The notes under the pieces: generated by a model
What the model was told of the DNA's origin: nothing
Database searches by the model: none
What the model saw: only the letters and a program-made list of their open reading frames with translations
Program-made: the position numbers and the translations under genes
In this document: one piece after another, positions 9,098-29,192 of the stretch
Numbering within the stretch: the stretch's first letter is position 1
How the letters are laid out: each line of letters begins with the position of its first letter
From: Gammaproteobacteria bacterium
GTDB lineage: Bacteria > Pseudomonadota > Gammaproteobacteria > Pseudomonadales > Azotimanducaceae
Assembly: GCA_026706385.1 (NCBI GenBank)
Contig: JAPOYV010000056.1
Location: 1-35,348, forward strand
Direction: 5' to 3'
DNA: 35,348 nucleotides

Positions 9098-10753
9098 GTG
9101 GCCCACGATCTCGTCATCCGGAACGGCACGGTGGCCGACGGCACCGGCCGCGAACCCACCAGCGCCTCCATCGCCATCGACGCCGGCAGGATCTCCGCTG
9201 TCGGCGAGGTTCCGCGCCGCGGCACCGACGAGATCGACGCCAGAGGCAAACTCGTCACCCCCGGCTTCGTGGACCTGCACACGCACCTGGACGCCCAGGT
9301 TGGCTGGGATCCGCTGCTGACCCCGATCAGTTGGCATGGCGTCACCACCGCTCTGCTCGGCAACTGCGGCGTGACCTTCGCCCCCTGCAAGCCGGAGGAC
9401 CGGGAGATCCTGGCCGGCATGATGGAGACCGTCGAAGACATCCCCCGACAAGCCATCCTGTCCGGCCTGCCTTGGACCTGGGAGAACTATGGCGACTATC
9501 TCGACGCCCTCGAATCCCTGGCGCCGGCCATCAACGTCGCGGGGCTGGTGGGGCACTGCGCCATCCGCTACTACGTGATGGGGGATCGCAGCGCATCCGA
9601 ACAGCCGACGGCGGAAGAGAAGGCCAAGATCGCGCGCATCGCCGGCGACGCCGTCCGCGCGGGCGCGGCCGGGTTCTCCACGAACAGGTTCCTGGGCCAC
9701 TACATGCCGGACGGTCGCCACGTCCCGGGCACGCACGCACATCACGAGGAGGTCGAGGCGATCGCCGCGGAGGTCGGAGCCGCCGGCGGACTGATGCAGA
9801 ACGTGCTGAACCTCGGTGGCGATTTCGAGGGCGAGGCGGAACTCCTGCGCAAGGAGGCGCGAGCATCCGGCGGTCGCGTGCTGTTCAGCATCACCGCGGG
9901 CGCCAAGGACACCTCGGGCCGCCGCGTGCGGGCGATGCTCGACGGAATGCACGCCGAGGGCCTCGACATCAGCTCCATTTCGACGCCGCGGGGCACCGGG
10001 TTCATCTCGGGCCTGCAATGCGGCTTCCCGTGGCGCTCGCCGGCTTGGGTCGAGTTGGCCAAGCTCGACTTCGCCGCGCGGCTCGAAGCGATCCGGGACG
10101 CGGACACACGGGCACGGCTCGTCGCCGAAGCGCGGGCGCAGCCGGGAACGCCCCCGGAGAACCTTTTCTGGATGGGCGACCACGAACAGCCGAACTACGT
10201 CGGCAATGCGGATCAGAGCCTCGCCCAATTGGCCGAAGCACGTCTCGAACACCCGGCCGAGACGTTCCTGCGCATGGCGCTCGACAGCGACGGTCGGACG
10301 CTCTTCACGCTGCGCTCGTTCAACAAGAACCTGAAGGCCGTGGCGCACCTGCTCTCGAGCGAGCACTGCTTCCCGGGACTCGGCGATGCTGGCGCGCATG
10401 TGAGCCAGGTCATGGACGCGGGATGGGCGACCTTCGTCCTCTCGCACTGGTGCCGGGACGCCGGGCTCTACTCGATCGGCGAGGCGGTACGCCGCGTTTC
10501 CGCGGCACCGGCACGGATCCTCGGCCTGAAGGACCGCGGCACGCTCAACGTCGGCAAGCGGGCGGACGTGAACGTCATCGATCTCGACACGCTGCACGAG
10601 AAGCACCCGGAGATCGTCCACGATTTCCCGCACGGCGCGCCGCGCTTCATCCAGCGCGCGCAGGGTTATGCCGCCACCGTCTGCAATGGTGCGGTCATCC
10701 TGCGTGACGACGAACACACGGGCGTGCGAGCGGGGGCCGTGTTGCGCGGGTAG
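9098..10753 (+). CDS. Amidohydrolase, N-acyl-D-amino-acid deacylase-like
   Basis: 551 residues from GTG 9098, with AAGGAAG (9083-9089) 8 bases upstream. The N-terminal small barrel (D-L-V-I-R-N-G-T-V-A-D-G-T-G) and metal-binding V-D-L-H-T-H-L-D (His 61 and His 63) are classic for D-aminoacylase-type amidohydrolases. Further blocks are N-C-G-V-T-F-A-P, G-A-A-G-F-S-T-N-R, G-D-A-G-A-H-V-S (metal Asp/His region) and the closing L-G-L-K-D-R-G-T-L-N-V-G-K-R-A-D-V-N-V. The family hydrolyses N-acyl-D-amino acids and related amides; the real substrate is unknown. It heads an operon with DUF1214, sulfotransferase, SDR and SRPBCC genes, so it may cleave an amide in an unusual conjugated compound (inference). 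A 775-codon frame on the opposite strand is a GC-rich shadow. Confidence 0.88.
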   Translation: MAHDLVIRNGTVADGTGREPTSASIAIDAGRISAVGEVPRRGTDEIDARGKLVTPGFVDLHTHLDAQVGWDPLLTPISWHGVTTALLGNCGVTFAPCKPEDREILAGMMETVEDIPRQAILSGLPWTWENYGDYLDALESLAPAINVAGLVGHCAIRYYVMGDRSASEQPTAEEKAKIARIAGDAVRAGAAGFSTNRFLGHYMPDGRHVPGTHAHHEEVEAIAAEVGAAGGLMQNVLNLGGDFEGEAELLRKEARASGGRVLFSITAGAKDTSGRRVRAMLDGMHAEGLDISSISTPRGTGFISGLQCGFPWRSPAWVELAKLDFAARLEAIRDADTRARLVAEARAQPGTPPENLFWMGDHEQPNYVGNADQSLAQLAEARLEHPAETFLRMALDSDGRTLFTLRSFNKNLKAVAHLLSSEHCFPGLGDAGAHVSQVMDAGWATFVLSHWCRDAGLYSIGEAVRRVSAAPARILGLKDRGTLNVGKRADVNVIDLDTLHEKHPEIVHDFPHGAPRFIQRAQGYAATVCNGAVILRDDEHTGVRAGAVLRG

Positions 10754-10757
10754 CACC

Positions 10758-11957
10758 GTGAGGAAGATCGCGATCGCCTTGCTCGCGGCCTTCCGGAAAA
10801 CGTCCGCGTTCTTTCGGAGACTGCGAGGCAGAACCGAAGACGACCTCGCCGCGCAACGCGTGGTGAGCGGCCAGGCGTGGGACGAATTCTGCGACACCCT
10901 CAAGGCTGCCGGCGCGGCATTGAGCTTCCCCGGTGCACCGCAGGACAGTTTCAACCAGGCCGAGGGCTACCGCTATCTCAGCCGTCTGACGCGCGGTGCG
11001 TTGATGGCCTTCATCGAACACGCGGATCCGAGGGCGCCGGTGCTGCATCGCATTGCCCACGAGACGGTCAAGCTCGGTGCCGACAACCCGGACAACCACT
11101 ATCAGACCGCGGCCATCTCCGGTGCCTACGAGTATCGGATCGTGGGCAGGCGCAACACGGTGACCTACTTGGCCTTCGGCACCCAGGCCGGCAACTACGG
11201 TCAGGGTGGCGGGATGCCGCCGACGGGCTATGTCGAGGCGAGCGAACTCGAAATGGACGACGAGGGCCGGTTCGAGCTGATCCTTAGCACCGAGCCACAA
11301 CCCGGAAACTGGCTGCCGATGCGCGCGGAGACCGGCACGCTGATCGTGCGCCAGACGTTCTCAGACCGCGCGACGGAAGTGCCGGCGGAACTCGCCATCA
11401 TGCGGATCAACTGCCCGGCTGAAGAGCGTCGCCCGACGCCGCTCACACCGAGGCAGTTGGACGACGGGCTCAAGTCGGCGAGCCTGCTTGTCGCCGGCGC
11501 TTCGCTGCTGTTCGCCAAGTGGGCGCGCGACTTTCAACGCCACAGCAACGCCTTGCCGCGCTTCGACCAGAACGTCTCCAACGCTGCGGGCGGCGATCCG
11601 AACATCGCCTACTACCACAGCCACTGGGTCCTCGCCGAGGACGAGGCGCTGGTGATCGATGCAATGCCGCCGAAGTGCGAATACTGGAATTTCCAGCTCA
11701 ACAACTACTGGATGGAGTCGCTGGACTACCGCTACCACACGATCCACACCAATAAGCACCTCGCGCACACCGAAGACGACGGTTCCATCCGCTTGGTGGT
11801 CGCCCACGAAGACCCGGGGCTGCCCAACTGGATCGAAACGGCCGGCCACACCTCCGGCACGATGTGCTTCCGTTGGGTGCGGGCCGTGGATCCACCGGAG
11901 CCGGCCACGCAGGTCGTGAAACTCGGCGAACTGGCCGCGGCGCGGCGCGACGGATGA
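10758..11957 (+). CDS. DUF1214 domain-containing protein
   Basis: 399 residues from GTG 10758, four bases after the amidohydrolase stop. The N-terminal part (about 35-190) contains R-Y-L-S-R-L-T-R. The C-terminal part has the DUF1214-type end: H-W-V-L-A-E-D-E-A-L-V-I-D, K-C-E-Y-W-N-F-Q-L-N-N-Y-W, D-G-S-I-R-L-V-V-A-H and N-W-I-E-T-A-G-H. No biochemical role is established to my knowledge; the family recurs in lipid- and steroid-type catabolic clusters of actinobacteria and proteobacteria (recalled, not checked). The stop overlaps the next start as ATGA, showing coupling to the sulfotransferase. Confidence 0.8.
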   Translation: MRKIAIALLAAFRKTSAFFRRLRGRTEDDLAAQRVVSGQAWDEFCDTLKAAGAALSFPGAPQDSFNQAEGYRYLSRLTRGALMAFIEHADPRAPVLHRIAHETVKLGADNPDNHYQTAAISGAYEYRIVGRRNTVTYLAFGTQAGNYGQGGGMPPTGYVEASELEMDDEGRFELILSTEPQPGNWLPMRAETGTLIVRQTFSDRATEVPAELAIMRINCPAEERRPTPLTPRQLDDGLKSASLLVAGASLLFAKWARDFQRHSNALPRFDQNVSNAAGGDPNIAYYHSHWVLAEDEALVIDAMPPKCEYWNFQLNNYWMESLDYRYHTIHTNKHLAHTEDDGSIRLVVAHEDPGLPNWIETAGHTSGTMCFRWVRAVDPPEPATQVVKLGELAAARRDG

Positions 11958-20398: not shown

Positions 20399-21421
20399 AT
20401 GTTTGACCTCGCCGGTCTGCACCAGGCGGAGGCCGTCGTGTACGGTGCCATGCCGCCGACGCCGCAGTACCGCTGGCCGGGTTTGAGCCGACTTGCGGGC
20501 TGCGACGTGTGGGTGAAGCATGAAAACCACACCCCGACCGGCGCCTTCAAGGTGCGCGGCGGTCTCGTCCTCTTCCACGAGTTGCACCGGACCGGCCAGT
20601 TGCCGGCGAAGGTCATCACCGCGACGCGCGGCAACCACGGCCAGAGCATCCCGTTCGCGGCTTCCCGCTTCGGCATCCCGGTGACCGTGCTCGCGCCGCG
20701 GGGCAACAGCGTGGAAAAGAACGCGGCGATGGTGGGCTGGGGTGCGGAACTCGTCGAGTTCGGCGACGACTTCGAGGACGCGCGCGTCGAAGCGGTGCGT
20801 CGAGCCGAGTCCGAGGGCGCGTTGCTGGTGCCGCCCTTTCATCCCGCGTTGGTTCGCGGGGTTGCCACCTATGCACTGGAGCTGTTGACCGCCGTGCCGG
20901 ACCTCGATGTCGTCTACGTCCCCATCGGCATGGGGTCCGGAATCTGCGGGCTGATTCGTACCCGCGATCTTCTCGGTCTGAAAACCGACATCGTGGGCGT
21001 GGTTGCGGCGCGAGCCCCGGCGATGGCGCGCAGCGTTGCTGCGGGAGAGGTGGTCGCCACACAAGCGGCGGATACGTTCGCTGACGGGATCGCATGCCGC
21101 GTGCCGATGCCCGAGCCGCTCGACGTCGTTTGTCGCGGCGCCGCCGGCGTGGTCGAGGTGGGCGAGGACGCGATTGCCGAAGCGATGCGCATGCTCTACA
21201 GCGAGACGCACAACGTCGCCGAAGGTGCGGGTGCCGCGGCATTCGCAGCGCTGATGCAGCACCGCGGGCGACACGCCGGTCAACGCGTCGCGGTCGTGCT
21301 GACCGGGGGCAACGTCGACACCGCGATTTTGCGCATCGTCCTCGGCGGCGGCGTCCCCGTCGCCGAGACCGCCGTACTGCAAGCGGCGCCGTCGGCGTCC
21401 GGGTCGCCGCCGCGCGCTTAG
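20399..21421 (+). CDS. PLP-dependent threonine/serine dehydratase-like enzyme
   Basis: 340 residues from ATG 20399. The PLP lysine lies in T-P-T-G-A-F-K-V-R-G-G (Lys 51). A-T-R-G-N-H-G-Q-S is the substrate Asn loop, and G-M-G-S-G-I-C-G replaces the usual glycine-rich phosphate loop. V-A-E-G-A-G-A-A-A-F and V-V-L-T-G-G-N-V complete the fold-type II pattern of catabolic threonine dehydratases. It lacks the regulatory ACT-type domain of biosynthetic IlvA. The reaction is probably deamination of a hydroxy-amino acid to a 2-oxo acid, but the context hints at a specialised substrate such as a 3-hydroxyaspartate-like compound (inference). It begins 13 bases after the preceding gene. Confidence 0.85.
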   Translation: MFDLAGLHQAEAVVYGAMPPTPQYRWPGLSRLAGCDVWVKHENHTPTGAFKVRGGLVLFHELHRTGQLPAKVITATRGNHGQSIPFAASRFGIPVTVLAPRGNSVEKNAAMVGWGAELVEFGDDFEDARVEAVRRAESEGALLVPPFHPALVRGVATYALELLTAVPDLDVVYVPIGMGSGICGLIRTRDLLGLKTDIVGVVAARAPAMARSVAAGEVVATQAADTFADGIACRVPMPEPLDVVCRGAAGVVEVGEDAIAEAMRMLYSETHNVAEGAGAAAFAALMQHRGRHAGQRVAVVLTGGNVDTAILRIVLGGGVPVAETAVLQAAPSASGSPPRA

Positions 21422-21438
21422 CGTCGTTGAGGATCAGG

Positions 21439-22935
21439 GTGTCGAAGCCGAACATCGTCCTGTTCCTGCCCGACCAACATCGCGGCGACGTCATGGGCTG
21501 TGCCGGGAATGCGGCGGCCATCACGCCGCACCTCGATCGACTGGCGTCGCGAGGCGTCCTGTTTGAGCGCTGCGCGACCAATGGGCCGCTGTGCATGCCG
21601 GCGCGGGCGTCGCTGATGACCGGCCAGCACGTCAACCGGCACGGCGTCTGGGGCAACAACCTGCTGGAAGCCGATCGCGGGGGGCCGAGCCACGTGCGCT
21701 GCATCCGCGATGCCGGCTACCACACGGCGATGTTCGGCAAGACGCACCTCTACGCGAACCATCGCAACGACGGCCATACGCGCGAGCATGCCTGGAAGCT
21801 CCGTGAATGGGGCTATGAGACGGTCCACGAACTGCGCGACGTCGTGCCGACCAGCCGATGCACCTGCCACTACGCCGACTTCCTCGCCGCGCGCGGCCGG
21901 TTGCGCGTCTACCAGGACTATGCGCGGCTGTGGTGGACGGGAGCGTTCCGGGGCGCCAAACCGTGGGAGGATCCGCCGAGCATCCTCCCGACCGAGGAAC
22001 ACATCGACATGTACTGCGCGACCCAGGCGGCGCAGTGGATCGGGTCGTACCAGGAGGACAAGCCGTTCTATCTGCAAGTGTGCTTCACCGGTCCGCATAC
22101 GCCGTTCGATGCGCCGCCGGAGTACCGCGCACGCTTTGCGCCGGAAGACGTGCCGGCGCCGATTCTCGAAGCACCGACCGAACCGGTGTCGCCGCAGGTC
22201 AGGCAGATGCTGGCCGCGAGCCGGATGGACGGGATCACCGAGATCCTCGGTCGCGTGATGGCGAGCCACTACTACGCCAAGGTGTCCCTCATCGACGATG
22301 CCGTCGGGCTGGTGACCCAGGCGCTCGCCGACGCAGGCCTCGAGGACGAGACCTGGATCATCTACACGTCGGACCACGGCGAGATGCTCGGCGACCACGG
22401 GCTAGGGCAGAAGAAGGTGTTCTACGAAGGCGCCCTTCGCGTGCCACTGATCGTCGTGCCGCCGGGCGGCACGGACGGCTGGCACGCCCGCGGCTTGAGC
22501 GACCACTTGGACGTGACGGCGACCCTACTCGAGGCGGCCGACGCCGGACCGTTACCGGACAGCCCGGGCCGCTCGCTCGTCCCTGCGGTCGTGGGTGGGA
22601 GCCGCGCCCATCCAGGCAAGGATGTGGTGTTCAGCGAGGTCGAGGCCTACTACGCGATGGCGCGCGACGACCGCTACAAGATGACGATCGATGCGCGGAC
22701 CGGCGCGGCGGTGGAACTCTACGACATGCAGAACGACCCGCTGGAACTCGAGAACCGGGTCGAGGAACCTGGATTTCGGGGTTTGCGCCAGGACATGGTG
22801 AACGAGTACTTCGGCCGGCTGGCGATCGACCGGACCAAACTCGACACCTACCAACGCCGCGTCGCTGCTGGCGGGTATCGCGATACATTCATGCATGACC
22901 TGCGGCGCCAGTTCGACGGCGTCGGGAGCACGTGA
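21439..22935 (+). CDS. Sulfatase (type I, formylglycine-dependent)
   Basis: 498 residues from GTG 21439, with GAGG 7 bases upstream. The N-terminus S-K-P-N-I-V-L-F-L-P-D-Q-H-R-G-D carries the first metal aspartates. The sulfatase signature is C-M-P-A-R (Cys 52), a CxPxR core in which the cysteine would be converted to formylglycine. Y-T-S-D-H-G-E-M-L-G-D-H-G supplies the C-terminal metal ligands. There is no signal peptide, so the enzyme is probably cytoplasmic. It hydrolyses sulfate esters, or phosphonate or carbonate analogues in some relatives. The next gene, a UGSC selenoprotein, starts 14 bases downstream, so the two are very likely cotranscribed. Confidence 0.9.
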   Translation: MSKPNIVLFLPDQHRGDVMGCAGNAAAITPHLDRLASRGVLFERCATNGPLCMPARASLMTGQHVNRHGVWGNNLLEADRGGPSHVRCIRDAGYHTAMFGKTHLYANHRNDGHTREHAWKLREWGYETVHELRDVVPTSRCTCHYADFLAARGRLRVYQDYARLWWTGAFRGAKPWEDPPSILPTEEHIDMYCATQAAQWIGSYQEDKPFYLQVCFTGPHTPFDAPPEYRARFAPEDVPAPILEAPTEPVSPQVRQMLAASRMDGITEILGRVMASHYYAKVSLIDDAVGLVTQALADAGLEDETWIIYTSDHGEMLGDHGLGQKKVFYEGALRVPLIVVPPGGTDGWHARGLSDHLDVTATLLEAADAGPLPDSPGRSLVPAVVGGSRAHPGKDVVFSEVEAYYAMARDDRYKMTIDARTGAAVELYDMQNDPLELENRVEEPGFRGLRQDMVNEYFGRLAIDRTKLDTYQRRVAAGGYRDTFMHDLRRQFDGVGST

Positions 22936-22949
22936 AGGAGAGATTAGCG

Positions 22950-24590
22950 ATGGAATTGATGAACCCGTGTGGCGTCTTCGACGTCCGATCCACGCCGCTC
23001 AGGCCACGCGTGGCGCTGGGACCGGACACGACCGTCGGCCTGTTCGCCAACGACAAGAAGAACGCCGACGTGTTGCTGGAACACGTCCGGCAGGGGCTCG
23101 TCGCGTCCTACGGCGTACAGGACTTCCGCTGGTTCCTGAAGGAGGCGACGCAGCCGGCCGAGTTCACACGGGAGTTCATCGAGGGCTGCGATGCCGTGGT
23201 GGGGGCCGTCTGCGACTGAGGCTCGTGCACGTCGTGGTGTATCCATGACCTGATCGAACTGGAGAAGCAGGGCATACCGTCGGTGGCCGTGGCCACCGAC
23301 GAGTTCTTCGCACTCGCGAAGGCGGAGGCCTTCGGGTGGGGGCTTCCGGGGTTGCCCATCACCGTCGTCCCGCACCCCTTGGCGAAGCTCGATGCAGCGC
23401 AGTGTGCAGCGGTCGCTGCCAACGTGCTCCCGGAGGTCGCGGCGGCGCTGACTGATCCGGCCGAGGATCTCGAGGCCCGGTACCGGAAAAAGACGATTTC
23501 GACCAGCGGACGACTGCGCTACAAGTCGCTATTCGACAGTGAGTTCAATGCGCCGGACGCGCCTGCCCGCATACGCGGCCCAGATACCATCGAGGCGTTG
23601 AACCGCGTCTTCTACGGTCGCGGGTGGACCGATGGCCTGCCGGTGCTCCCGCCGACTCCCGGACGCTGCGAGGCGATGCTTGACGGCCGGGACCCCGACG
23701 AGGTTGTCGCCATCGTCGAGCCGCGGCTGGGCCAAGCAACGCTTGGCAAGATCGCGGCGAACGCCGTCATGGCGGGCTGCGAACCGGCGCACTTCGGCGT
23801 GGTGCTGGCGGCGACGCGCGCCATGTGCGATCCCGCCTTCAACCTCAAGGCCATCCAGTCGACAACGCATCCGTGCACCGTGGGTTGCCTGGTCGGTGGC
23901 CCGGTTTGCGAGGCGATCGGGGTGAACGGGGCGTACAACGCGCTCGGTCAAGGCAGCAAGGCCAACGCGGTGATCGGGCGGGCGATCCGTCTGATCCTGG
24001 TCAACGTCGGCGGCGCGTCTCCGGGCGCCCTCGACCGGTCGACCATGGGCTCTCCGGCCAAATACGCCTTGTGCTTCGCCGAGAACACCGAGGCAAGTCC
24101 ATGGCAGCCGTTCCACGACGATCTCGGCCTTGATCCGTCGTCGAGCCACGTGACCGTCTTTGGGGTGGAGGGTCCGCACAACGTGAACGACCACTACGGG
24201 CGAAGCGCCGAGGAGATTCTGCTCACCGTCGCCGGCACGTTGGCATCCCCGGGCGCCAACAACTTCTACCTGGAGGGCGAGCCGGTGGTCGTGCTCGGGC
24301 CGGAACACGCGGAAGTGGTCGCCGCGGCGGGTTTCTCGAAAGCCGGGGTGAAGGCTTATTTGAGCGAGAAGGCCATCGTGCCGCGGGCGCTGGTCTCGGA
24401 CGCCATGATCGCGGAGCTGGAGAAGCGCTTGCCGCATCACCTGCTCGGTCCTGGAGGACGCGACGGCGTGCGGTTCGTCACGAACCCCGACGATTTGCTG
24501 ATCTTGGTTGCCGGGGGCGCTGGACGCCACTCGGCCGTGTTGCCGACGTTCGGCCACTCGACACGGGCGGTGACGTACCCGGTCGAATAG
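22950..24590 (+). CDS. UGSC family selenoprotein with selenocysteine encoded by UGA at 23217-23219, fused to a large C-terminal domain
   Basis: One frame of 547 codons from ATG 22950 (AAGGAGA 8 bases upstream) to the stop at 24590, interrupted only by TGA at 23217-23219. A conventional caller would report two genes, 22950-23219 and 23283-24590, but the sequence between them is open in the same frame and codes for conserved-looking protein. With UGA read as Sec the motif is C-D-U-G-S-C-T-S-W-C-I-H-D (Sec 90, Cys 93), followed by L-I-E-L-E-K-Q-G-I-P-S-V. This matches the U/C-G-S-C motif of the UGSC (seleno)protein family. UxxC suggests thiol-type redox chemistry. Residues from about 213 form a second domain with G-W-T-D-G-L-P-V-L-P-P-T and a cysteine cluster (H-P-C-T-V-G-C-L-V-G-G-P-V-C). 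The exact reaction is unknown to me. The gene closes the LLM-dehydratase-sulfatase series. Confidence 0.88.
23221..23259 (+). promoter_or_regulatory. Candidate bacterial SECIS element directing UGA to selenocysteine
   Basis: Just after the UGA a hairpin forms: gtcgtgg (23231-23237) pairs with ccatgac (23243-23249), seven pairs including one G-U, around a five-base loop tgtat. Outside a C-C mismatch further pairs (29-51, 28-52, 25-55, 24-56, 23-57 of the 232xx numbering) lengthen an imperfect stem. The loop begins 19 bases after the UGA, within the spacing known for bacterial SECIS, and a GGU lies at the loop edge. SelB would bind here. Confidence 0.65.
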
Positions 24591-24635
24591 GCGCGGCGCA
24601 ACTTGCGATGCCGCGCATCTAGCGATGCGGGGGGA

Positions 24636-24641
24636 TACACT
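24636..24641 (+). promoter_or_regulatory. Possible -10 element before the DUF6491-like gene
   Basis: TACACT at this position would start transcription near 24648, which favours the ATG at 24673 over the ATG at 24646. No -35 is clear. Confidence 0.25.
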
Positions 24642-24672
24642 GGGCATGGCGTTGTCCTTGGGCGATACGGCA

Positions 24673-25164
24673 ATGGCGAGATCGCTGGCAATGTTCTGGA
24701 TCGTCGTGGCGTCGGCCGTGGTGACCACCGCCGAGGAGACCGACGCGATTCCCTCCGCGGAGGAAATCCTCGCCAATCCGCTGGACGATGCGGCTTACGT
24801 CGACGATGTACGGTGTCTGGCCGTCGGGCGCTATCGGCAGGTGGACATTCTCAACCACCGGGTTCTGGTCTTCCGCGGACGCGGCGGTCGGGCTTGGATC
24901 AACCTGTTGCCACGTCCGTGCCCGGGCTTGCATCGCCACATGGTGCTCGCCATCGAGACCCGGGGCTCCCGGGTTTGCAGCCGGGACCAGTTCCGCGGCA
25001 TGCCGCGGATCGGCCCTGAAGGCGCCACGGGCTTTTGTTCGCTAGGAACATTTCGTCCTGTCGAAGCGGACAACTTGGATGCCATCCGCGGTGCCCTGCG
25101 CGCGAGCAGCGCGAATAGGACAGTCGCCAAAACGGTTCGCTCGTCCGAAAAGGCCGAAGACTAG
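24673..25164 (+). CDS. Exported DUF6491-like protein
   Basis: 163 residues from ATG 24673; starts at 24646 or 24625 are also possible. M-A-R-S-L-A-M-F-W-I-V-V-A-S-A-V-V reads as a signal peptide. The mature part has D-D-V-R-C-L near its start, a strand pair I-L-N-H-R-V-L-V-F with W-I-N-L-L-P-R-P-C-P-G-L, then R-V-C-S-R-D and F-C-S-L-G-T-F-R-P-V. Four spaced cysteines and this order resemble the DUF6491 family of small periplasmic proteins (recalled pattern). Function unknown. It ends convergent with the cupin gene. Confidence 0.6.
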   Translation: MARSLAMFWIVVASAVVTTAEETDAIPSAEEILANPLDDAAYVDDVRCLAVGRYRQVDILNHRVLVFRGRGGRAWINLLPRPCPGLHRHMVLAIETRGSRVCSRDQFRGMPRIGPEGATGFCSLGTFRPVEADNLDAIRGALRASSANRTVAKTVRSSEKAED

Positions 25165-25710: not shown

Positions 25711-28209
25711 CTAGCCAAGGAGACCGCCGAGCCGCGCCAACGCATGCCCGAGATCGGGCTCGATGGTCAGCACTTCCAGCATGGGGTCGCCGGCGGTGCG
25801 CAGGTGGGGCACGGCGTTCTTCAGGTCATAGTTGGCGTTGTTCAAGTCGCCGTTCAGCGCCTCCCAGTCCACGGGCATCGACACCGATGCGGCCGGTTCG
25901 GCACGGGCCGAGAACGGCGCCACCAGAAGCTGACCGTGGCCGTTTTGCAGGTAGTCGATGTAGACCTTGTTCTCGCGCTTCTTAACCGCGCGCGTGATGG
26001 TGCAGATGTCGGGGCGACGGGCGACGAGGACGCGTGCGAGCAGCTCGCCGAGCGTCGTCGCTTGGCGGTGGGTGAGCTGACGGGCCAGCGGTAATAGGAT
26101 GTGCAAGCCGCTCGCCCCGCTGGTCTTGAGGAAGCCCGGCAGTTCGATCTCGTCGAGCAGGTTCTTCACCTCGGTGGCGGTCTCGACGACGTCCGCGAAC
26201 GGGGCTTGCTTGGGATCGAGGTCGAGCACGCACCAGTCCGGATGCTCGAGGTCGGTGATGCGACTGTGCCAGGCGTGGATGGGGATGGCACCCATGTTGG
26301 CCAGGTAGACCAGCGACTCGGGGTTCTGCGCGATGAAATAGTGGACCTCGCGCTCGGCGCTCTCGCTCCAAAGCACCTTGCGTTCGACCCAGTCCGGCAC
26401 GAAGGCGGGCGCGTCGCGTTGGTAGAAGGATTTGCCGTGGATGCCGTCGGGAAACCGGGTCAGCACCAAGGGTCGGTCGAAAAGGTACGGCAGCATCCAG
26501 GGCGCAACGGTCTCGTAGTAGCCTAGGAGGTCGCCCTTGGTCCACTGCTTCTCGGGGAAGAACACCTTGTCGGGGTTGGTGATGACGACCTCGCGCTCCG
26601 GCTCCTGTTCAAGGGCGTTGGGCGGTGGTTCGTGGTAGGTGCTAATGCACTCGTCGGGGGCCTTGTCGTCGCGCAAGCGCAGAAACACCGGATGGCGGAG
26701 CAGGCCGTCGGCGGAGTACTCGCGGAACTGGACCTCGCAGACCAGCACGGGTTCCACCCAGCGGTGGGCGCGGTCGTCGATGTCGTTGGCTAGGCCTGGC
26801 GCGGCCTTGAGCGCGGCAAAGCGGTTCTGCAACTCGCGCCGGGGATCCGTGCCGAGGCCGGAGCCGACGCGCCCGCAGTAGGTTAGCTCGTCGCCGCGGT
26901 ACTCGCCGAGCGCGAGGGCGCCGATGTCGTCGGGGTTGTTCTTGACCGGTACCCAACCGGCGACGACGAAGTCGCCGGTCTGCGCGCCGCGGACCTTGCG
27001 CCAGGATTCGCTGCGACCGCTGACATACGCCGAGTCGGCGCGCTTGCCGACAACGCCCTCGAGCCCCAAGCGGCGCATGGCGTGAAAGGTCTCGATGCCG
27101 TTTCCGTCGATGTGCTCCGAATACCGGATCGGGCCGGCCGGGGGCAGCATTTCGCGCAGCAGGGACTTGCGTTCGGTGAGTGGAAGTCCTTTCAGGTCGT
27201 AGCCGCAGGCGTGCAGTAGATCGAAGGCATAGCAGGTGACCGGGTCGTGCATCGAGGCCGTTCTGGTGGCGAGTTCGCCGCGAACCGCGGCGCGTTGCTG
27301 GAGACGGGAGAAATTGGGCACCCCGCGGTCGTCGTGTACGACGACCTCGCTGTCCATCGTGAACTCGGTATAGGGGAACTTCGCAGCGCACTTGGCGATC
27401 TCGGGGAACCGTGTGGTCAGGTCGATCCCGGTGCGTGAATGCAGCGTGACGCGGTCCCCGTCGCGTTCGATCATCAGCCGGTAGCCGTCGTACTTGATCT
27501 CGTAGACCCAGCCTTCGCGGTGGAAGGGCTCGGAGGATTTGGCCAGCATCGGGCTTTCGGTCAGCGACACGGTGGCCGGCGGGCAGGGCTCGATGGCCTT
27601 GATGCGCTCGACGAGGCCGTGCTCGATGGCTGTCGGGGCTGCGATCGTCTCGATGGTCATCCCGGACAACACGGAGCTGTCGGCGAGCGGTTCCTCGCGC
27701 ACCCACTGGTCTCGCTCCTTGATGAGGAGCCATTCCTTCCCGGAGCTTTCGCGGCCCTTGAGTCGAATCAGCGTGAACCGGCCTCGCAGCTTGTGGCCGT
27801 TGAGTTCGAACAGGAGCTTGCCATCCCGGAATCCGGTCACGAAATCCTCGAGTTCGACATAGGTCCCGGTGTCCCAGACGATGACGCTGCCGGCGCCGTA
27901 GTTCCCGTCCGGGATCCGGCCTTCGAAGTCGGCGTAGTCGAGGGGATGATCCTCGACTTCGGCGGCGAAGCGCTTGTCGTCCGGGTTCATCGACGGTCCT
28001 TTGGGCACCGCCCATGAGCACAGCACGTTGTTCACCTCGAGCCGGAAGTCCCAGTGCATGCGTCGCGCCGCATGCTGCTGGACCACGAAGAGACGTCTCG
28101 GCGCGTCGCTTGCGGCGATGCGGCCCGTCTCGGCACTGAACGGCTCCGGCGTCGCGGAAGCGCTGCGCTTTCTTCGATAAGTCTCGAGGTTGTCGCGGCT
28201 TGAGGGCAT
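25711..28209 (-). CDS. ligD: ATP-dependent DNA ligase D (phosphoesterase-ligase-polymerase)
   Basis: 832 residues from ATG 28209 (M-P-S-S-R-D-N-L-E-T-Y-R-R-K-R); the frame runs to 28257 but that start adds a tail foreign to the family. Three catalytic units in the Pseudomonas order: 3'-phosphoesterase (about 30-150, with V-Q-Q-H-A-A-R-R-M-H-W-D-F-R-L-E supplying His, His and Asp), ligase (about 220-510, nucleotidyl Lys 239 in E-I-K-Y-D-G-Y-R-L), and primase-polymerase (about 530-820, with V-L-D-L-D-P as the metal Asp pair). It repairs double-strand breaks by non-homologous end joining with Ku, trimming, filling and sealing ends. It is divergent from the Ku gene, sharing a 128-base intergenic region. 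Confidence 0.96.
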   Translation of the reverse strand: MPSSRDNLETYRRKRSASATPEPFSAETGRIAASDAPRRLFVVQQHAARRMHWDFRLEVNNVLCSWAVPKGPSMNPDDKRFAAEVEDHPLDYADFEGRIPDGNYGAGSVIVWDTGTYVELEDFVTGFRDGKLLFELNGHKLRGRFTLIRLKGRESSGKEWLLIKERDQWVREEPLADSSVLSGMTIETIAAPTAIEHGLVERIKAIEPCPPATVSLTESPMLAKSSEPFHREGWVYEIKYDGYRLMIERDGDRVTLHSRTGIDLTTRFPEIAKCAAKFPYTEFTMDSEVVVHDDRGVPNFSRLQQRAAVRGELATRTASMHDPVTCYAFDLLHACGYDLKGLPLTERKSLLREMLPPAGPIRYSEHIDGNGIETFHAMRRLGLEGVVGKRADSAYVSGRSESWRKVRGAQTGDFVVAGWVPVKNNPDDIGALALGEYRGDELTYCGRVGSGLGTDPRRELQNRFAALKAAPGLANDIDDRAHRWVEPVLVCEVQFREYSADGLLRHPVFLRLRDDKAPDECISTYHEPPPNALEQEPEREVVITNPDKVFFPEKQWTKGDLLGYYETVAPWMLPYLFDRPLVLTRFPDGIHGKSFYQRDAPAFVPDWVERKVLWSESAEREVHYFIAQNPESLVYLANMGAIPIHAWHSRITDLEHPDWCVLDLDPKQAPFADVVETATEVKNLLDEIELPGFLKTSGASGLHILLPLARQLTHRQATTLGELLARVLVARRPDICTITRAVKKRENKVYIDYLQNGHGQLLVAPFSARAEPAASVSMPVDWEALNGDLNNANYDLKNAVPHLRTAGDPMLEVLTIEPDLGHALARLGGLLG

Positions 28210-28337
28210 CTTCGATTTCGGGCTATAGTCGGCTGGCCTTAAATGAACGCGGCTCATCTTCCCGTGGCCGGCGGCGTATGGTCGGCACGTGATGGGAAGT
28301 AGCCCCGCCGGGCCTCAAAGAACAGGAGGTTCTCGAT

Positions 28338-29192
28338 ATGGCCGCACGCTCCATGGCCTCCGCCACCATTGCATTCGGATTGGTTTCCATACCGTGCAAG
28401 CTATTCGCCACGGCGGACAGTACACGCGCGGTACGCTTCAACTACCTCGCGAAAGACGGTTCCAGACTCCGCCAGCAGTATATCCGGGCCTCGGATGGCG
28501 AAGTAGTGGAACGCCAGGATCGGATCCAGGGCTACGAGTTCACGAAAGGGCAGTACGTCACGTTCACGGACGAGGAACTCAAGGCGCTCAACGCCGAAGC
28601 GACCAACGCGATCGACATCAACGAGTTTATTCCGCTGGCCGATGTCGAGCGGATCTACATCGAACGTGTCTACTACCTCGGCCCGGACAAGGGCGCAGGC
28701 CGGTCCTATCACCTGCTACGCGCCGCCTTGGACCAGACCGGGCGCGCCGCCTTGGCGCGCTATGCGGCCCGCGGCAAGAACTACCTGGTCCTGATCCGAC
28801 CGTTCGGCGAGGGCCTCGTGATGGAACAACTGAAGCACGAGGACGAACTGCGCAGGTTCGACGAGGTGCCGCTCGACGTCTGCGACGTGAATTCGGCGGA
28901 GTTGGAGTTGGCCGTGCAGATCATCGACCAGCGAACCAACGAGAAGTTCGAGCCTGAGGGATACCACGACGATGTGCGCGAACGGCAGCTCGAGTTGATC
29001 CAGCAGAAGATCGACGGTCAGGACATCTCGGTGGCACCCGAGGAACAGCCGGAGGCGAAGATCATCGACCTTATGGAGGCACTCAAGGCGTCTGTTGGTG
29101 ATCGCAAGCCGGCGATGCGAACGGAGTCGGCGAAAGGCGGTCGACGCAAGTCGGCGTCCGGGTCGCGCTCCGAGAAGCGCGCGGAAGGCTAA
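28338..29192 (+). CDS. ku: Ku protein for non-homologous end joining
   Basis: 284 residues from ATG 28338, preceded by a strong AGGAGG. A-S-A-T-I-A-F-G-L-V-S-I-P-C-K-L-F opens the bacterial Ku core, with R-I-Q-G-Y-E, V-E-R-I-Y-I-E-R-V-Y-Y-L-G-P and Y-L-V-L-I-R-P following. The C-terminal tail (from about 255) is rich in Lys, Arg and Ser, as in many bacterial Ku proteins that use it for DNA binding and sliding. It forms a homodimer ring on DNA ends and recruits LigD, encoded on the other strand. A gap of 31 bases leads to the MerR-TPR gene. Confidence 0.96.
   Translation: MAARSMASATIAFGLVSIPCKLFATADSTRAVRFNYLAKDGSRLRQQYIRASDGEVVERQDRIQGYEFTKGQYVTFTDEELKALNAEATNAIDINEFIPLADVERIYIERVYYLGPDKGAGRSYHLLRAALDQTGRAALARYAARGKNYLVLIRPFGEGLVMEQLKHEDELRRFDEVPLDVCDVNSAELELAVQIIDQRTNEKFEPEGYHDDVRERQLELIQQKIDGQDISVAPEEQPEAKIIDLMEALKASVGDRKPAMRTESAKGGRRKSASGSRSEKRAEG

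Follow-up and report, generated by a model that had tools for sequence, protein, structure and literature searches.

Two apparent genes separated by an in-frame UGA in a gammaproteobacterium are very probably one selenoprotein gene of the UGSC family

Do two adjacent open reading frames in the draft genome (134 contigs) of a gammaproteobacterium of the Azotimanducaceae encode two proteins, or do they form one gene whose internal UGA is read as selenocysteine? In the window, by which we mean the whole stretch of 35,348 nucleotides that was analysed, a single frame on the plus strand runs from 22950 to 24590 and comprises 89 residues, the TGA at 23217–23219, a further 456 residues and a TAG at 24588–24590. 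A preliminary description of this DNA had drawn attention to the unbroken frame and to the context CDUGSCTSWCIHD, and translation bears out both. It had also predicted that a standard gene caller would truncate the protein at residue 89, and the standard ORF listing does give two ORFs, a 5′ one ending at 23219 and one of 435 amino acids, with a GTG start, at 23283–24590. We conclude from the sequence comparisons set out below that the two apparent genes are almost certainly one gene for a selenoprotein of 546 residues, with the UGA read as selenocysteine (Table 1). The window is GC-rich and holds 39 TGA codons flanked each way by no fewer than 80 open codons, so the open frame alone is weak evidence and was dropped as an argument for selenocysteine. 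What stands above chance here is homology together with conservation through the UGA.

Table 1. Features at the UGSC locus, in positions of the window.
Feature	Position	Strand	Details and basis
Sulfatase ORF, possible operon partner	21094..22935	+	Ends 14 nt before the UGSC gene
Putative Shine-Dalgarno AAGGAG	22935..22940	+	9 nt before ATG 22950; sequence reading
Complete UGSC selenoprotein gene (very probable)	22950..24590	+	546 residues with Sec90, ending in TAG; one TGA in each full-length orthologue
UGSC domain (PF24696 / NF041046)	22956..23453	+	Pfam and NCBIfam profile matches
In-frame UGA, predicted Sec90 of the U-G-S-C motif	23217..23219	+	Context CDUGSCTSWCIHD
21-nt identical block and bacterial SECIS-like hairpin	23229..23249	+	Fold, identical block, pair counts
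Hairpin stem (7 bp)	23231-23237 with 23243-23249	+	Predicted fold; apical loop UGUAU at 23238-23242, 18 nt after the UGA
Separate 435-aa ORF, GTG start, expected from a standard caller	23283..24590	+	Standard ORF listing
C-terminal partner domain, about residues 206–546	23565..24587	+	No Pfam match; fused here, encoded next to UGSC in other relatives

The assignment to the UGSC selenoprotein family, which the preliminary description had made from the motif, is upheld by profile searches. The Pfam model UGSC (PF24696) spans the TGA, scoring 150.1 bits over residues 3–168 (cut-off 25; E 8.5e-44); the NCBIfam model NF041046, ‘UGSC family (seleno)protein’, scores 129.2 bits, narrowly over its curated cut-off of 125. 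The U/C-G-S-C motif is present at the aligned family position. The protein is like the family in this motif, in passing the curated cut-offs, in its in-frame UGA and SECIS-like hairpin and in the occurrence of Cys forms among some homologues, but differs in having a fused C-terminal domain. The gene is an ordinary member of a family already in print by 2008: PMC2398784 (2008) describes selenoproteins with UGSC, reports how abundant they are in the Global Ocean Sampling data and names a fusion of UGSC to ‘Unknown_1’, a domain that may correspond to the present C-terminal one. PMC9312934 and PMC13188914 include the UGSC family in lists, and the latter describes nearly all selenoproteins of this kind as largely uncharacterised in function. 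No function for UGSC was reported in the titles and abstract openings found; subscription papers and preprints lay outside the scope of that search.

Exactly one TGA occurs in each of the 10 full-length orthologues (66–100% identity, the present gene counted); the other nine are relatives at 66–94% identity. This count excludes a near-full-length sequence from G040 (L034, 34% identity), which has two TGA codons and whose frame contains a second stop as well as undetermined bases, and also the copies in G001, G004 and G009, which are partial or split. At the site itself, 34 of 36 distinct sequences have TGA and two have TGC (Cys); the latter, from Natrinema (L016) and Embleya (L018), are Cys-containing homologues of the kind that the preliminary description had proposed to seek. 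The 15 loci from named genomes are titled as gammaproteobacterial, alphaproteobacterial and betaproteobacterial MAGs. Three orthologues (L021, L028 and L056) terminate with TGA, which is thus also an ordinary stop in the clade, and the source genome itself carries three UGSC domains with one TGA each. Two further loci deserve mention. L061 has a second, divergent UGSC-partner fusion on the minus strand (about 9660–11425), facing the first, with the motif UGSCTPAVLRA; the hairpin that follows its UGA differs in sequence. L063 is a MAG titled Bordetella parapertussis, a label that may be unreliable, given the close resemblance of its UGSC gene to that of the betaproteobacterial MAG L062.

The preliminary description had judged the residues between the TGA and the next available start to be conserved protein, and pairwise comparison supports this reading. 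Over codons 91–111, dN is 0 to 0.19 against a dS of 0.15 to 1.36 in 10 comparisons with the present gene, and dN is lower than dS ahead of the UGA, immediately behind it and further downstream, with dS saturated in some of the comparisons. Codons 91–111, which lie in neither apparent gene, are under purifying selection as judged from these substitution rates. Within them, the 21 nucleotides of codons 94–100, encoding TSWCIHD, are identical in 12 fused orthologues (one of them, L054, cut by a contig end), and this is the longest identical run in the gene, the next being 8 nt. Degenerate codons are frozen in 6/6 cases in the block and in 14/179 of the invariant degenerate codons outside codons 91–112 (Fisher p 7.6e-7); the test omitted six invariant columns (91–93, 102, 104 and 105), none of them frozen, with which the second figure becomes 14/185. 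The comparison left aside the same or nearly the same copies L020, L023, L050, L052, L053 and L064, the partial copies L030 and L032, and the frame-broken L031/L057 and L055.

This block coincides with a hairpin that was predicted prior to any alignment. Its folding energy is ordinary, since 29% of 955 sampled 45-nt stretches of the window fold at least as well, and energy was dropped as evidence; an Rfam search of 22600–24900 returned zero matches. Pair conservation is more informative. A first count over 27 of the 34 distinct TGA-containing sequences and eight pairs found 86.6% of cells paired and one pair changed on both sides. Because outer pairs fail in some sequences (15–33, 16–32 and 22–26 in nine, eight and 10 sequences, respectively), the count was repeated on all 34 with five inner pairs, a choice made after the pair data had been seen; 97.6% of cells are then paired. 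The covariation of the inner pairs, 0.316, was matched by none of 500 shuffles, and two of five covariation measures were matched by 32/500. The commonest paired change, at columns 21–27, replaces G-C by C-G in 13 of the 34 sequences; it tracks protein clades and may represent one or two events only. The loop G and T (columns 23–24) are at least 90% conserved. In PMC1088965, a bacterial SECIS has a guanosine in the small apical loop of a stem-loop just past the UGA, and the predicted UGUAU loop, with its conserved G, resembles that element. The Natrinema Cys form is still able to fold a similar hairpin; the Embleya Cys form is not.

If the UGA is read as selenocysteine, selA, selB, selC and selD should be present in the organism, as the preliminary description had expected, and all four were found over their cut-offs. 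The contig C84 carries selA (536.7 bits), selB (374.2 bits) and tRNA-Sec (68.8 bits) in one cluster, in which the selA and selB ORFs overlap by 4 nt and the tRNA gene adjoins selB; its anticodon is TCA according to ARAGORN and its score exceeds the Rfam cut-off. SelA, SelB and SelD each exceed their family cut-offs. Among 14 control genomes the cut-offs were passed by one for selA, two for selB, two for selD and five for tRNA-Sec, so that the tRNA-Sec score alone is weak evidence. The selD match (250 bits) lies on C3 (L070:1402–3660, minus strand) within an ORF of 752 amino acids that has an N-terminal Pyr_redox_2 domain, an arrangement that resembles the Ndh-SelD fusions mentioned in PMC2398784. 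Across 293 genomes of the order, the UGSC domain exceeds the cut-off in 25 genomes with 37 matches, 36 of which have one TGA; six further matches below the family cut-off were left uncounted. In each of the 24 genomes that carry the TGA form, selA exceeds its cut-off; no selA was found in G123, the sole genome with the stop-free form, which is 75% complete. A further 15 genomes have selA without UGSC. In family f44, the UGSC and selA matches lie 84–108 nt apart in four of the six UGSC-bearing genomes (G115:C2, G249:C2, G270:C2 and G289:C1), and in G115 (L049) the partner-domain gene is just upstream of UGSC.

These observations bear on the other ways in which the locus might be read. Standard ORF rules give exactly what would be expected of two translationally coupled genes, one for an 89-residue protein ending at the UGA and one for a 435-residue protein starting at GTG 23283, and such a small protein is annotated on the Acidovorax sp. 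T1 plasmid in its public record. Against this, both PF24696 and NF041046 continue through the UGA, codons 91–111 are conserved as protein although they lie outside both ORFs, and no well-placed Shine-Dalgarno sequence is seen just before GTG 23283 on reading the sequence. Real splits do occur in relatives, but 83 to about 110 residues further on; the preliminary description had named homologues that truly end at the UGA as an outcome that would speak against it, and the separate UGSC genes instead end at that greater distance past Sec. Two coupled genes are therefore very unlikely, and on this evidence the 435-residue ORF would not be an independent gene, coding conservation being found upstream of its start.

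A pseudogene or assembly error, in which a Cys codon has become TGA, might be entertained for a draft genome when the same gene has frame breaks in the relatives L055 and L031/L057; the presence of TGA in nearly all distinct sequences and in all but one of the over-cut-off matches in the order, together with purifying selection downstream of the UGA, makes it exceedingly improbable. Reading of the UGA by some other route, as Trp or through general stop suppression, would equally leave an open frame, and has nothing more in its favour. Both stop-free forms with a residue seen (L016 and L018) have Cys rather than Trp, a conserved hairpin follows the UGA, selA accompanies the UGA form in 24 of 24 genomes and TGA is the own stop of some orthologues, so that this route is scarcely credible. 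The gene makes a well-supported case of a selenoprotein split in two by standard ORF rules. The Acidovorax sp. T1 annotation (L017:8640–8930), which stops the UGSC protein exactly at the UGA, is a misannotation of the kind that the preliminary description had predicted.

The decoding route through SECIS, SelB, SelA and SelD is established knowledge, and its parts were found here. On the selenoprotein reading, ribosomes would decode the UGA at 23217–23219 as selenocysteine, as we infer from the sequence; the downstream hairpin would act as the bacterial SECIS that recruits SelB with Sec-tRNA, the latter charged by SelA with selenophosphate supplied by SelD. The full-length structural model is confident (pLDDT 88.8, pTM 0.89). 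In the model of the UGSC domain, strands and helices alternate and Sec90 lies after the third core strand, between strand 82–86 and helix 91–106, so the domain models as Rossmann-like. If correct, this predicted order would depart from the thioredoxin-like fold that was thought likely for UGSC in PMC2398784. Among the 50 PDB fold matches listed for the full-length model, with MetH, TIR, flavodoxin-like and glycoside hydrolase family 3 chains among them, none bears the name of a thioredoxin-fold protein; none reached E 0.001, and a glycoside hydrolase came closest at 1.5e-3. By sequence, the PDB gave no match at E up to 1.

GrdB and PrdB are the selenoprotein B subunits of glycine and D-proline reductase. 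A UGSC profile aligned with 10 GrdB/PrdB-like proteins of relatives (PF07355) with a probability of 90.1 and E 1.6e-6 over 90 columns; in this distant alignment the Sec positions coincide and Cys93 meets the Cys that follows, which points to a possible relationship, the link being one profile alignment between two shallow alignments. The two are not the same at the family level: the motif is UGSC here and UGTC or UPVC/UPNC in the GrdB/PrdB relatives examined, TIGR01917 matches residues 70–157 with 19.1 bits, far below its cut-off of 602.2, and PF07355 is absent among the Pfam matches of the present protein (P0001) at a limit of E 10. The proprotein family that partners GrdB/PrdB, PF09338, gave zero matches in 38 genomes, which says little because no control genome gave a match either. 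Sec90, at the start of the helix, and Cys93 could together form a UxxC centre, acting in redox chemistry or as a nucleophile, with a relationship to the Sec end of GrdB/PrdB. The source genome (G000) has four GrdB/PrdB (PF07355) matches, at C77:3876–4283, C96:47888–48238, C84:179838–180245 and C112:36852–37211. Of these, L082 was examined; after its TGA the frame continues with PNCTRAV, so that it looks like a further selenoprotein. With three UGSC domains and four GrdB/PrdB regions, the genome may therefore use selenium in several proteins.

The C-terminal part gave zero Pfam family matches at a limit of E 10, nothing better than E 0.06 in NCBIfam and nothing against the GrdB/PrdB profile (probability 0.3). 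Among 49 loci fetched by similarity to the present protein, duplicates included, the partner domain is fused to UGSC or lies within 700 bp of it on the same strand in 48 of 51 copies, with UGSC first in 33 and the partner first in 15; it stands alone in three copies, one of them at a contig end. Where the two parts are split, the UGSC gene extends 83 to about 110 residues past the Sec/Cys and does not stop at the UGA. Fusion and adjacency in both orders argue for two parts of one enzyme. L031/L057, from one close relative, show a change of frame between UGSC and the partner domain near residues 226–249, which may be a genuine split or an error of assembly. In domain numbering, the columns that do not vary among 21 copies include DGLP, GP, N143, G150, G152, IGRA, K188, C192 and E195. 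The model of the domain (84.7, 0.86) has one weak match, the class I fumarate hydratase 7xky, which is the only PDB match at E < 0.001 (5.7e-4 over 352 columns); TM-scores of 0.28/0.33 and an rmsd of 12.5 make the fold match unreliable, and with scores near 0.3 fumarase membership is not claimed.

The UGSC domain and the fused C-terminal domain probably form one enzyme acting on a small organic substrate, conceivably by GrdB-like reductive cleavage, a possibility we hold only tentatively. It is an equally speculative suggestion that the pair constitutes an undescribed two-part selenoenzyme, in which the partner would bind or activate the substrate for a GrdB/PrdB-related Sec domain. The Rossmann-like UGSC model, the alignment with the Sec end of GrdB/PrdB and the linkage to the C-terminal partner domain are new here, and the linkage offers a concrete function hypothesis for the UGSC family, that of two domains working together in GrdB-like chemistry.

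The genomic neighbourhood was compared through annotation of chosen neighbours and was dropped as a clue to the substrate, the genes differing between clades. The sulfatase of the window was matched in three of 19 loci compared (L050, L057 and L064). Betaproteobacterial loci have CoA-transferase (L058, L060 and L063), enoyl-CoA hydratase (L058 and L061) and TctC receptors (L058, L061 and L062). Downstream of the UGSC gene in the window, LigD (25711–28257, minus strand) and Ku (28338–29192, plus strand) are divergently arranged and constitute a bacterial non-homologous end-joining pair.
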